Shown: in pieces, positions 7,524 to 59,491 of the stretch
How positions within the stretch are numbered: the stretch's first letter is position 1
Layout of the letters: each line of letters opens with the position of its first letter
Assembly: GCA_003551665.1 (NCBI GenBank)
Contig: PUNE01000129.1
Location: 1-64,000, forward strand
Source of the DNA: Halobacteroidaceae bacterium
Lineage (GTDB): Bacteria; Bacillota; Halanaerobiia; B1SED10-174
DNA: 64,000 nucleotides
Reading direction: 5' to 3'
Notes under the pieces: model-generated
The model's database searches: none
Seen by the model: only the letters and a program-made list of their open reading frames with translations
Told to the model about the DNA's origin: nothing
Position numbers and translations under genes: made by a program

Positions 7524-7700
7524 GGGGGCAGGAAATTTCTTCGGGGAACATTGCCAGGAAAAAATAAAAGGCGGGTTTTCCTGAAAAATGAGTGGGAAAG
7601 TTGGATGGAGGGATGCCGGAGTTTTGCAGCGAAGGAGAAGAATAAAAATCCTGATGGAGAGATTATCCCCAAAGAAAATTATTTGATTGGAGTGTCAAAA

Positions 7701-9149
7701 TTGTTTAAAACGGTAACCGGAGGGAGCTTTAAAGTTCTCAGCCAGGAAGACATCAAAGCCATTCACAAGGAAACACTGAGTATTATGGAAGATACAGGGA
7801 TCAGGGTTCACAACTCCAGGGCAAGGGATATATTTGCCAAAAATGGAGCAAGCGTTAATGAAGAAGCAGGTATAGTCCGTATTCCCAGGTCAATGGCAGA
7901 AGATGCCATTGCCAGTGCTCCGTCTTCAGTTGTTCTTTGCGGACGGGAGGAAAAAAATGACCTGCTGCTGGAAAAGACCAACACCTACCTGGGAACAGGG
8001 GGAACGGTCCTCAACACCCTGGACCTGGAAACAGGAGAAAAAAGGACAACAAAAGCCCGGGATGTGGCAGACTATGCTAGAATCACGGACTGCCTGGATA
8101 ATATCGCATTTTTTGTAATCAACTGCTACCCGGATGATGTAGAAACCGAGAATGTTGATGTAAACAGGTTCTATCATTCCCTGGCCAACACCTCAAAACA
8201 TGTAATGGGTGGAATTTATACCATGCAGGGCTTGAAGGATGTTATTTCCATGGGCGAGGACATCGCCGGCGGCCGGAAAAAACTCCTGGAAAGGCCCTTC
8301 CTTTCTTTTATCACCCTGATGGTAAGCCCCCTGGTAATGGAAAAGCAGTATACTGATTTTCTGATCGAGGTGGCCAATTATGGTTTGCCCATTGCTACCC
8401 CTTCGGAGCCTCTGGCTGGAGCGACTTCACCAGTTACCCTTGCCGGGACAATTACCGTAAATAATATAGAATCTCTTGCCGGCCTGATCCTCGTCCAGTT
8501 AATAAATAGGGGCAATCCTACCCTTTACGGGTCCACCTCCAGCATAATGGATCCCCGGTCGGGAATCTATATTTCCGGATGTATTGAATCAGCCCTGATC
8601 AATGCAGGTTGTGCCCAGATGGCCCAGTTTTACGAGATTCCCATTTATGCAACCGGGGGCATGTCAGATTCCAAGACAGTTGACTGCCAAGCAGGTTATG
8701 AAAAAGCGGCAACGGCAATGACTGTTGCTCTCTCCGGGGCAAACTTCATTCACGATGCTGCTGGCCTTCTGGAGTTCTGCACCACCCTTTCATACGAGCA
8801 GATGGTAATTGATAATGATATCCTGGGTATTTCTCTGCGGGCAACCCGGGGGGTGGAAGTGGATCCGGAAACCATTGCTGCGGATGTAATCCGTTCGGTG
8901 GGACCGGGAGGGCACTTCCTTGGTGAGGAGCATTCTGTTCGCCACGTCCGAAAGGAGTTATATATCCCTTCAATTGCGGACAGGAATACCCGTGATCGGT
9001 GGGAAGAAATGGGTTCTCCCGATACAAAGGTGAGGGCAAAAGATAAAGCCAGGAAACTTCTAGCAGAACATCAGCCCCTTGGTTTCCCAGAGGAACTGGA
9101 CAAAAAATTACTTGAAAAATACAAGGGGATTAAGCAAAGGAGGACCTAG
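7701..9149 (+). CDS. MttB-family (non-pyrrolysine) methyltransferase 1
   Basis: This is a member of the trimethylamine/glycine-betaine methyltransferase family, which passes a methyl group from a quaternary or tertiary amine to a corrinoid protein. TTG at 7701 is chosen because GGAG lies 8 bases upstream, the family N-terminus (LSQEDIKAIHKETLSIMEDTG) follows at once, and the product is then 482 residues, exactly the length of the next paralogue. The frame is open back to 7551, but that start is only about 20 bases past the predicted transcription start. No in-frame amber codon is present, so it is of the MtgB-like, pyrrolysine-free type. No corrinoid protein or reductive activator is nearby. 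The substrate cannot be read from sequence. Confidence 0.88.
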   Translation: MFKTVTGGSFKVLSQEDIKAIHKETLSIMEDTGIRVHNSRARDIFAKNGASVNEEAGIVRIPRSMAEDAIASAPSSVVLCGREEKNDLLLEKTNTYLGTGGTVLNTLDLETGEKRTTKARDVADYARITDCLDNIAFFVINCYPDDVETENVDVNRFYHSLANTSKHVMGGIYTMQGLKDVISMGEDIAGGRKKLLERPFLSFITLMVSPLVMEKQYTDFLIEVANYGLPIATPSEPLAGATSPVTLAGTITVNNIESLAGLILVQLINRGNPTLYGSTSSIMDPRSGIYISGCIESALINAGCAQMAQFYEIPIYATGGMSDSKTVDCQAGYEKAATAMTVALSGANFIHDAAGLLEFCTTLSYEQMVIDNDILGISLRATRGVEVDPETIAADVIRSVGPGGHFLGEEHSVRHVRKELYIPSIADRNTRDRWEEMGSPDTKVRAKDKARKLLAEHQPLGFPEELDKKLLEKYKGIKQRRT

Positions 9150-23015: not shown

Positions 23016-23049
23016 AAAGCAAGGTTGCCTTTCGGCAACCTTGCTTTTT
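23016..23049 (+). terminator. Intra-operon hairpin after the binding-protein gene
   Basis: A perfect 14-bp stem (AAAGCAAGGTTGCC with GGCAACCTTGCTTT), a TTTC loop and a short T-run. Placed between the binding protein and its ATPase, it probably ends most transcripts or stabilises the 5' message, giving an excess of binding protein. Confidence 0.8.
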
Positions 23050-36057: not shown

Positions 36058-36086
36058 TTGCCAATAATTTATTAACCTTTTTTAAT
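36058..36086 (+). promoter_or_regulatory. Sigma-A-type promoter of the flagellar operon
   Basis: TTGCCA (36058-36063) and TTTAAT (36081-36086) are separated by exactly 17 bases. Transcription would begin near 36093, about 50 bases before the riboswitch aptamer, so the leader RNA would contain the complete sensor. Confidence 0.55.
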
Positions 36087-36139
36087 CCGCCTTTCTTTTT
36101 TGGAATAGGAACAATTGAATACTGGTTTTTAAGAACCTC

Positions 36140-36226
36140 TACCGATAATGGCAAACCTGTCGAAAGGCAGGGACGCAAAATCACAGGCCTAAACCGTTTT
36201 TACGGCACGGTTGCTGTGTTCCCGAA
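36140..36226 (+). promoter_or_regulatory. c-di-GMP-I (GEMM-I) riboswitch aptamer
   Basis: The conserved core is plain: GGCAAACC (36150-36157), the CGAAAG tetraloop-like element (36161-36166), GGGACGCAAAA (36170-36180), GGCCTAAACC (36186-36195) and a closing CGGTTGCTGTG (36208-36218). CACAG pairs with CTGTG to close the second helix. The match to the Vc2-type consensus is near complete. GEMM-I RNAs bind cyclic di-GMP. It lies in the leader of flgB with a terminator hairpin downstream, as in Clostridioides difficile, where ligand binding turns flagellar genes off. Confidence 0.93.
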
Positions 36227-36257
36227 GGGAGGAGTTTTCTATTTCGTGTATCCTTCC

Positions 36258-36290
36258 AAAAGGCATTTGCGGTAGCAAATGCCTTTTAAA
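36258..36290 (+). terminator. Riboswitch-controlled terminator
   Basis: A perfect 13-bp stem (AAAAGGCATTTGC with GCAAATGCCTTTT) with a GGTA loop lies 32 bases after the aptamer and about 42 bases before flgB. Its T-run is inside the stem. It is the likely expression platform; which sequence forms the competing antiterminator is not clear. Confidence 0.8.
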
Positions 36291-36332
36291 ATGACCAGAA
36301 ATGTCTACTAATGTCCTGAAAGGGGTGGTTGA

Positions 36333-36740
36333 ATGTGGGGTAAAATTGATCCGCAGATCGGTCTGCTTACCCGGGGCCTCGATGTTTCCCATTTCCGCCA
36401 GGGGTTAATTTCCGATAACATTGCCAATGCGGATACCCCAAATTACAAGAGGAAAGATATTGACTTTTCCCAGGCCATGGGTGCGGCAGTGGCAAGGCAA
36501 AAAGAAGCGGGGCTGGTAAAAACTGACCCCCGTCACCTGGGTTCTACTACCGAAACGGGAAGTGAATTAAAAGCAGTTGAAGAAGGAGGAACAAGGACTC
36601 GCCTGGATGGAAACAATGTTGATATCGAAGTGGAAATGGCCAAACTTGCAGGTAACGGACTCTACTATCAAACCGCAGGTCGTCTCCTTTCGGGCAGGTA
36701 TGGAATTCTGGAAAAAATTATTAATACAGGGAGGCCCTGA
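36333..36740 (+). CDS. flgB: Flagellar basal-body rod protein FlgB
   Basis: This 135-residue proximal rod subunit has the family N-terminal DNIANADTPNYKRKDIDF block and a C-terminal helix (LYYQTAGRLLSGRYGILEKII). It is the first gene of the operon, with GGGGTGG upstream, and is translated only if the riboswitch leader is read through. Confidence 0.95.
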   Translation: MWGKIDPQIGLLTRGLDVSHFRQGLISDNIANADTPNYKRKDIDFSQAMGAAVARQKEAGLVKTDPRHLGSTTETGSELKAVEEGGTRTRLDGNNVDIEVEMAKLAGNGLYYQTAGRLLSGRYGILEKIINTGRP

Positions 36741-57664: not shown

Positions 57665-57736
57665 TTGGGGTTAATATTACCTGCTGGCATGGAAACAGAA
57701 TAATCTTGTTTTTTCTTAGCAGGGGAGTTGAGGGTT

Positions 57737-58690: not shown

Positions 58691-59491
58691 ATGGGTAAGG
58701 CGGAGATGCCGCAGATGGCTCAGAAAAGTGACGAAGAACTGAAGGATTTATGGGATCTTTACCGACAGGAAAGGGATCCAGAGGCCCGCAGAAAACTTAT
58801 CCTGAATTACTCCTATCTGGTCAAGTATGTTGCGGGCCGGGTAATGATTCATCTGCCTTCCTACGTGGAACTGGACGACCTGGTTTCCTACGGGACTATT
58901 GGATTGATTGACGCAGTTCAGGGTTTTAATCCGGATCACGGGGTTAAATTCAGTACATACGCAGTAGCCAGAATCAGGGGGGCAATTTATGATGCCCTTC
59001 GAGCGATGGACTGGGTCCCGCGGTCGGTCCGGGAAAAAGCAAAAATGATCAGTACTGCAATGGCCGAACTGGAACAGGAACATAAAAGGCCCCCTTCTGA
59101 CGAGGAATTGGCCTCGCATCTGGAAATTTCCCAGGAAAAGCTGGAAAAAATCCTGTCCCAGGTAACCATACCACAGGTAATGTCTCTTGAAGGGCTGGGA
59201 GGTAACGGGGACGAAGAGGAAAAACCTTCCCTGGAAATTCCAGGCCCCCGGGATGAGGATCCCCTGAATATTGTCCAGGACAGGGATATGAAAGAGAGTC
59301 TTGGTCGGGCCATTGAAAGACTCCCGGAGAAAGAGCAGCTGGTTGTTTCCCTTTATTATTACGAGGGGCTAACCCTGAGAGAAATCGGAGAAGTTCTGGA
59401 TTTATCTGCTGCCAGGATTTCCCAGCTGCATAGCAAGGCAATACTTCGCCTGCGGGGAATGTTGGGTCGTGATAAAAGCAGTTTCCTTTGA
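58691..59491 (+). CDS. sigD: Flagellar sigma factor SigD/FliA
   Basis: This 266-residue sigma-28 factor has region 2 (DDLVSYGTIGLIDAVQGFNPDHGVKFSTYA read in parts; ARIRGAIYDALR), region 3 (RPPSDEELASHLEIS) and region 4 (LPEKEQLVVSLYYYEGLTLREIGE) including its recognition helix. It directs late flagellar and chemotaxis genes. No flgM anti-sigma gene is in the window. GGGGGGTG precedes the start. Confidence 0.95.
   Translation: MGKAEMPQMAQKSDEELKDLWDLYRQERDPEARRKLILNYSYLVKYVAGRVMIHLPSYVELDDLVSYGTIGLIDAVQGFNPDHGVKFSTYAVARIRGAIYDALRAMDWVPRSVREKAKMISTAMAELEQEHKRPPSDEELASHLEISQEKLEKILSQVTIPQVMSLEGLGGNGDEEEKPSLEIPGPRDEDPLNIVQDRDMKESLGRAIERLPEKEQLVVSLYYYEGLTLREIGEVLDLSAARISQLHSKAILRLRGMLGRDKSSFL

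Follow-up and report, generated by a model that had tools for sequence, protein, structure and literature searches.

The leader of flgB, the first gene of a flagellar gene run, carries a c-di-GMP-I riboswitch that, with a probability of roughly 0.6, is a transcriptional OFF switch of the flgB operon in which the 5′ strand of the aptamer itself would form the antiterminator. An OFF switch acting by premature termination had been proposed in the original prediction and is the best reading of the present analysis, from which we infer both termination and polarity. The window analysed is a stretch of 64,000 nucleotides from the genome of a Halobacteroidaceae bacterium (G000; 2.87 Mb in 156 contigs, with four GEMM-I elements). 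Three of five close genomes (G003, G004 and G005) have a flgB orthologue, these orthologues being 76, 77 and 63% identical, and in 3/3 a GEMM-I aptamer lies ∼105–108 nt upstream. The features of the window used below are as follows.

36058 to 36086, forward strand: possible sigma-A promoter TTGCCA-17-TTTAAT, read from the sequence, with 5/6 and 5/6 consensus matches
36124 to 36137, forward strand: small hairpin GGUUUUUAAGAACC, with fold probabilities of 0.71–0.99 in G000, G004 and G005
36136 to 36140, forward strand: P1 5′ strand CCUCU, pairing with 36228–36232 in all four species
36139 to 36150, forward strand: aptamer 5′ strand CUACCGAUAAUG, overlapping the binding pocket and complementary to 36264–36275; 12/12 positions identical in G000, G004 and G005
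36140 to 36226, forward strand: c-di-GMP-I (GEMM-I) aptamer
36227 to 36233, forward strand: P1 3′ strand (GGGAGGA), where the anti-P1 helix also begins, from folding and shuffle tests
36251 to 36257, forward strand: anti-P1 strand UCCUUCC, directly abutting the terminator; its sequence varies, but G004 and G005 keep a partner for the pairing
36258 to 36287, forward strand: intrinsic-terminator-like hairpin of 13 bp with loop GGUA and a T4 tail, from folding, T-tail score and window scan
36264 to 36275, forward strand: terminator 5′ arm and loop, the predicted antiterminator partner, pairing with 36139–36150 on folding
36290 to 36311, forward strand: conserved block AATGACCAGAAATGTCTACTAA between the hairpin and the ribosome-binding site, with 21/22 and 20/22 identical columns
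36319 to 36328, forward strand: Shine-Dalgarno region of flgB, from the sequence
36333 to 36740, forward strand: flgB, first gene of the run (Pfam PF00460)
36333 to 63337, forward strand: flagellar run from flgB to flgG (Pfam)

An Rfam scan of the window gave one c-di-GMP-I aptamer, a match to RF01051 with 77.2 bits (E 1.9e-13) against a gathering score of 35, covering model positions 1–87 of 87. A GEMM-I aptamer had been predicted here, with a covariance-model search as the check and the lack of a match as the outcome that would count against it; the match obtained is clear. The alignment contains the GNRA tetraloop (GAAA) as well as GGC, GCAAA and CCG, among which are residues that we take to be the equivalents of Vc2 G20, A47 and C92. 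On that assumption, the G at the G20 equivalent is expected for sensing of c-di-GMP and not of cGAMP. Judged by sequence, the element is confirmed as a c-di-GMP-I class riboswitch, which would bind this ligand. Its P1 stem (CCUCU with GGAGG) falls largely beyond the Rfam model, and without ligand the GGUUUUUAAGAACC hairpin could sequester some of the P1 5′ strand. Signalling by c-di-GMP is likely in G000, as its genome yields 15 GGDEF matches and 1 EAL match.

The start of flgB (36333) is 106 nt 3′ of the aptamer end. From there, flgB, flgC, fliE, fliF, fliG, fliH, fliI, fliJ, a gene with an MgtE_N domain, fliK, flgD and flgE are followed by motA, motB, fliL, fliM, a fliY-like gene, fliO, fliP, fliQ, fliR, flhB, flhA and flhF, and then by a PilZ/YcgR gene (at 57728), a flagellar-type sigma factor gene (at 58691), a FapA gene and two flgF/G-type genes. 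All lie on one strand over ∼27 kb. The whole 28-kb operon of the original prediction is thereby supported as a gene run, and its transcription as a single unit is presumed. Because a PilZ/YcgR gene sits in the run, c-di-GMP probably acts on motility at two points, through this protein and through the riboswitch. Elsewhere in the window, a match of 44.3 bits to PYLIS_3, the mttB pyrrolysine insertion sequence, at 8661–8760 falls inside an ORF (7551–9149) that has no in-frame stop, which is probably an MttB-family gene without pyrrolysine.

The hairpin downstream of the aptamer (AAAAGGCATTTGC-GGTA-GCAAATGCCTTTT) has 13 perfect pairs and, with its T4, an energy of –18.2 kcal/mol; flgB starts 45 nt beyond it. 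A scan of the window for perfect hairpins found one other site that is longer and one that is equal, and shuffled windows gave just 1–5 register counts with at least 9 pairs. The perfect 13-bp hairpin noted earlier between aptamer and flgB is thus real. Its supposed oddity, a T-run lying inside the stem, is ordinary, since hairpins at 1331–1356 and 23016–23047 of the window also pair a T-run with an A-run. The run of T residues after the hairpin is T4 in G000, T5 in G005 and T6 in G004, and the equivalent hairpin of G003 has none. What sets the window's hairpin apart is only that its T-run is short. Tail strength, expressed as a d'Aubenton-Carafa type T-tail score, is 3.17 (G000), 3.80 (G005), 4.39 (G004) and 0.05 (G003), compared to 4.2–5.6 for sister riboswitches.

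The hairpin core, loop included, is identical at 22/22 positions in G000, G004 and G005, and third codon positions of flgB are just 50, 51 and 72% identical among the same genomes. As termination requires pairing alone, identity of both stem and loop calls for a further reason. A dispersed repeat was considered and rejected, as each of the three genomes with the core has just one copy. An antiterminator predicted from folding, built from the aptamer 5′ strand plus the loop and 5′ arm of the terminator, would account for the conservation of hairpin and loop alike. The two strands, CUACCG-AU-AAUG (36139–36150) and CAUU-UG-CGGUAG (36264–36275), are complementary, and their pairing uses the AAUG that precedes GCAAA, so that it excludes both the ligand pocket and the terminator. 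When folding was computed along the growing transcript, this pairing reached a probability of 0.98–0.99 in all three species once CGG (36272) was made, and was lost only upon completion of the terminator 3′ arm. With the terminator stem forbidden, emergence of the arm improved the best fold by 13–15 kcal/mol (13.3 in G000 and 13.0 in G005). In G004, the best terminator-free fold has other partners, although at intermediate transcript lengths no fold was better than the one with the 5′ strand paired.

Compared with random hairpins, the complementarity is unusual both for the 5′ strand (P = 0.00075) and for the whole aptamer (P = 0.019), and shuffling of the arm and loop gave P values of 0.002 for G000 and 0.010 for G004; as the shuffle tests were devised after the pairing had been seen, they are supportive rather than conclusive. 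One caveat is that this 5′ strand version is known from three sequences only (G000, G004 and G005), two of which are fairly close. Another concerns kinetics. The terminator-free fold lies above the terminator fold by 6.4 kcal/mol in G000, 4.6 in G005 and 3.2 in the third species, and since the terminator fold wins at equilibrium in all three, the antiterminator must last kinetically. If RNA polymerase shields ∼14 nt of the transcript, then the CGG needed to complete the antiterminator would emerge just as polymerase reaches the T-run, a tight timing that is a real uncertainty.

A second helix is predicted between 36227–36233 and 36251–36257, ending exactly at the start of the terminator. The linker of G000 has only 2/13 and 1/14 identical columns with those of G005 and G004, respectively, and each of these relatives could pair different sequences at the same place: GGAG..AUUUUCU with AGAAAAUCUCC in G005, and GAGAG..GUUUU with AAAACUCUC in G004, both flush with the terminator. 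Shuffle tests were marginal in each of the three species (P = 0.085, 0.043 and 0.079), and in G003 the helix was not found (P = 0.56). Recurrence of the helix at one place in three species suggests that it is functional.

Together, these pairings would give the following switch, every step of which is computed. At low c-di-GMP, the aptamer 5′ strand would bind the hairpin's 5′ arm and loop, and the P1 3′ strand would be held by the anti-P1 strand; with the terminator blocked, RNA polymerase would transcribe on into flgB. With c-di-GMP bound, P1 and the pocket would occupy both aptamer strands, allowing the hairpin to close, so that transcription would end at ∼36287 and the operon would be off. 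Aptamer and terminator are compatible in this scheme, in that folds with P1 imposed retain the hairpin, and the antiterminator competes with both.

A more classical OFF switch would form its antiterminator from the P1 3′ strand and the terminator 5′ arm. This is how C. difficile Cd1 works (PMC9262584). A scan of 35 GEMM-I elements, with two tests each, covered both designs. In five sister elements (C88a, C79a, C79b, C210a and C159), strong pairing of the Cd1 type joins the terminator 5′ arm to the aptamer 3′ side (P = 0.00–0.02), the energies being –21.7 kcal/mol for G000:C88a and –22.1 for G005:C79a (both P = 0.00). At the flgB leaders, however, 3′ strand pairing is weak and does not exceed that of shuffles, with –8.6 kcal/mol (P = 0.71) for the leader in the window and –7.8 (P = 0.61) and –11.1 (P = 0.34) for the other two, and the P1 3′ strand has another partner, flush with the terminator stem but outside it. 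These data argue against the Cd1 scheme for flgB, and we regard it as unlikely here. Pairing of the 5′ strand is strong at the flgB leaders of the three species (P = 0.01), and two elements with unrelated terminator sequences follow the same design (G001:C270, –22.3 kcal/mol, P = 0.001; G003:C105, –19.7 kcal/mol, P = 0.014). For many of the 35 elements neither design is clear, and for the four C30-type elements the hairpin finder took a later terminator, making those rows irrelevant to the question. As two tests on 35 elements will give a few low P values by chance, the argument lies in the strength of the best cases and not in their number. We would give even odds to a GEMM-I platform whose antiterminator forms when the aptamer 5′ strand, pocket nucleotides included, is captured by the loop and 5′ arm of the terminator, and where a second helix disables the P1 3′ strand, a design that may have arisen several times in the family (flgB leaders, G001:C270 and G003:C105).

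Alternatively, the hairpin might not serve ligand-controlled termination: it might attenuate weakly and constitutively, take part in RNA processing or stability, or be a palindrome bound by a protein, while the aptamer would control translation by exchanging strands with the ribosome-binding site of flgB. The hairpin does form thermodynamically with or without P1, G003 retains a 10-bp stem without the T-run, and conservation is strong in the block separating the hairpin from the ribosome-binding site. That site, AAAGGGG, could be a partner for the pyrimidine-rich anti-P1 strand. Strand exchange at the ribosome-binding site was nonetheless rejected: across the four species, imposing P1 produced no consistent change in predicted accessibility of the site. 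T-runs of 4–6 follow the hairpin in three species, and the antiterminator already explains why hairpin and loop are conserved. Overall, we consider this alternative improbable.

The conserved block at 36290–36311, retained in part by G003, admits two readings, an RNA element and a 6-codon ORF (36291–36311, encoding MT(R/K)NVY-stop). A pseudoknot between the GGUA loop and a downstream UACU was discarded, as G003 does not keep the pairing. The G003 leader (G003:C31:9-200) keeps the aptamer and the stem GGGCATTTTT/AAAAATGCCC, with A7 in place of the T-run; just upstream of this stem lies an alternative hairpin followed by T7, for which 5′ strand pairing does not reach significance (P = 0.21). To go by these sequences, G003 shows a platform that has been rebuilt within the genus.

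The opposite polarity, with c-di-GMP preventing termination, has precedents: pilM, a cGAMP ON switch, is a close GEMM relative (PMC9262584), and in C. difficile c-di-GMP induces one of the c-di-GMP-I targets (PMC3649979). In the flgB leader, however, aptamer and terminator can coexist, and the alternative pairing takes pocket nucleotides and excludes the aptamer. Repression of motility at high c-di-GMP is also the usual logic. An ON switch is thus very unlikely.

The promoter of the original prediction (36058–36086), possibly of sigma-A type, is a candidate only, because the region 36058–36119 is not conserved in relatives (just 27/67 and 22/68 columns identical) and a promoter scan, which demands A at base 2 of the –10 hexamer, did not list it. 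A SigD-type promoter at CCGATAA, within the aptamer, was rejected; the string resembles a –10 element, but TAAA is missing at the correct spacing and the string is aptamer consensus.

The arrangement extends well beyond the genus. GEMM-I and flgB are same-strand neighbours in at least 13 more genomes of the class (G017, G019, G021, G022, G023, G025, G026, G027, G030, G046, G047, G050 and G056), and in 13/13 of these a terminator-like hairpin lies within 150 nt past the aptamer. GEMM-I before flgB is therefore common in the class, as well as being known in C. difficile.

Several other GEMM-I elements were noticed in the family. One in G000 (C30:101165-101400) has its own TTGAC/TATAAT promoter and is followed by a terminator, then by a strongly conserved stretch in which two motifs (ATTCCTCCTTATCAATCCTCCTTTCTA) resemble an anti-Shine-Dalgarno sequence, and finally by another terminator. 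We saw no flanking gene on the same strand, the nearest long downstream ORF being on the opposite strand, and no further Rfam family matched this locus at gathering threshold. With its orthologues (G005:C4, G004:C37, G003:C105, G002:C80 and G001:C159), the element is single-copy in 6/6 family genomes and missing from the other 53 genomes of the class. Its features suggest a small RNA under c-di-GMP control that resembles the 3′ end of 16S rRNA. Two GEMM-I elements lie 0.6 kb apart at G000:C88:5226-6812, the first preceding a small predicted secreted peptide of ∼60 residues and the second immediately preceding an ORF that matches GGDEF weakly, which suggests feedback in c-di-GMP signalling. A tandem pair of near-identical GEMM-I elements, separated by 220 nt, occurs in G004 (C18:4258-4561).

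Control of the flgB operon by c-di-GMP through a leader riboswitch has hitherto been studied mainly in C. difficile, and the occurrence of GEMM-I at flgB throughout this Bacillota class suggests that the arrangement is widespread and not one pathogen's peculiarity. The C. difficile riboswitch before flgB (Cd1, or Cdi1_3) is a proven OFF switch (PMC9262584, PMC5386303, PMC3649979), in which a metastable antiterminator later yields to the terminator (PMC9262584). It shares with the leader described here the aptamer class, a target operon that includes a sigma factor gene, and a terminator, here a predicted one, downstream of the aptamer; in both, aptamer and terminator are mutually compatible and the terminator is favoured in the long term. 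In Cd1, a 338-nt region with an invertible DNA switch lies past the terminator, whereas here flgB begins 45 nt past the hairpin and we saw no such switch. Bc1 of the Bacillus cereus group likewise has a c-di-GMP-I aptamer and intrinsic terminators in its leader, but it has two of them and targets mcpE, and no response to c-di-GMP was found for it in vitro, as against one predicted terminator and flgB here (PMC11218506). The sister elements (G000:C88a, G005:C79a, G004:C210a and others) match the flgB leader in aptamer class and downstream terminator, and differ in pairing the P1 3′ side with the terminator 5′ arm. This is, then, a genuine riboswitch of known class and known target, on what is probably a variant of the studied platform. 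That the platform may act differently had been part of the original prediction, and this holds in so far as the predicted antiterminator departs from that of C. difficile, the position of the T-run playing no part. The Cd1 antiterminator is described as pairing the aptamer-stabilising 3′ strand A with T, whereas here the 5′ strand is predicted to pair with the terminator arm and loop, alongside the anti-P1 helix. If true, capture of the 5′ strand by the terminator loop would be a switching route unlike that of Cd1, and one that can be tested by mutation.
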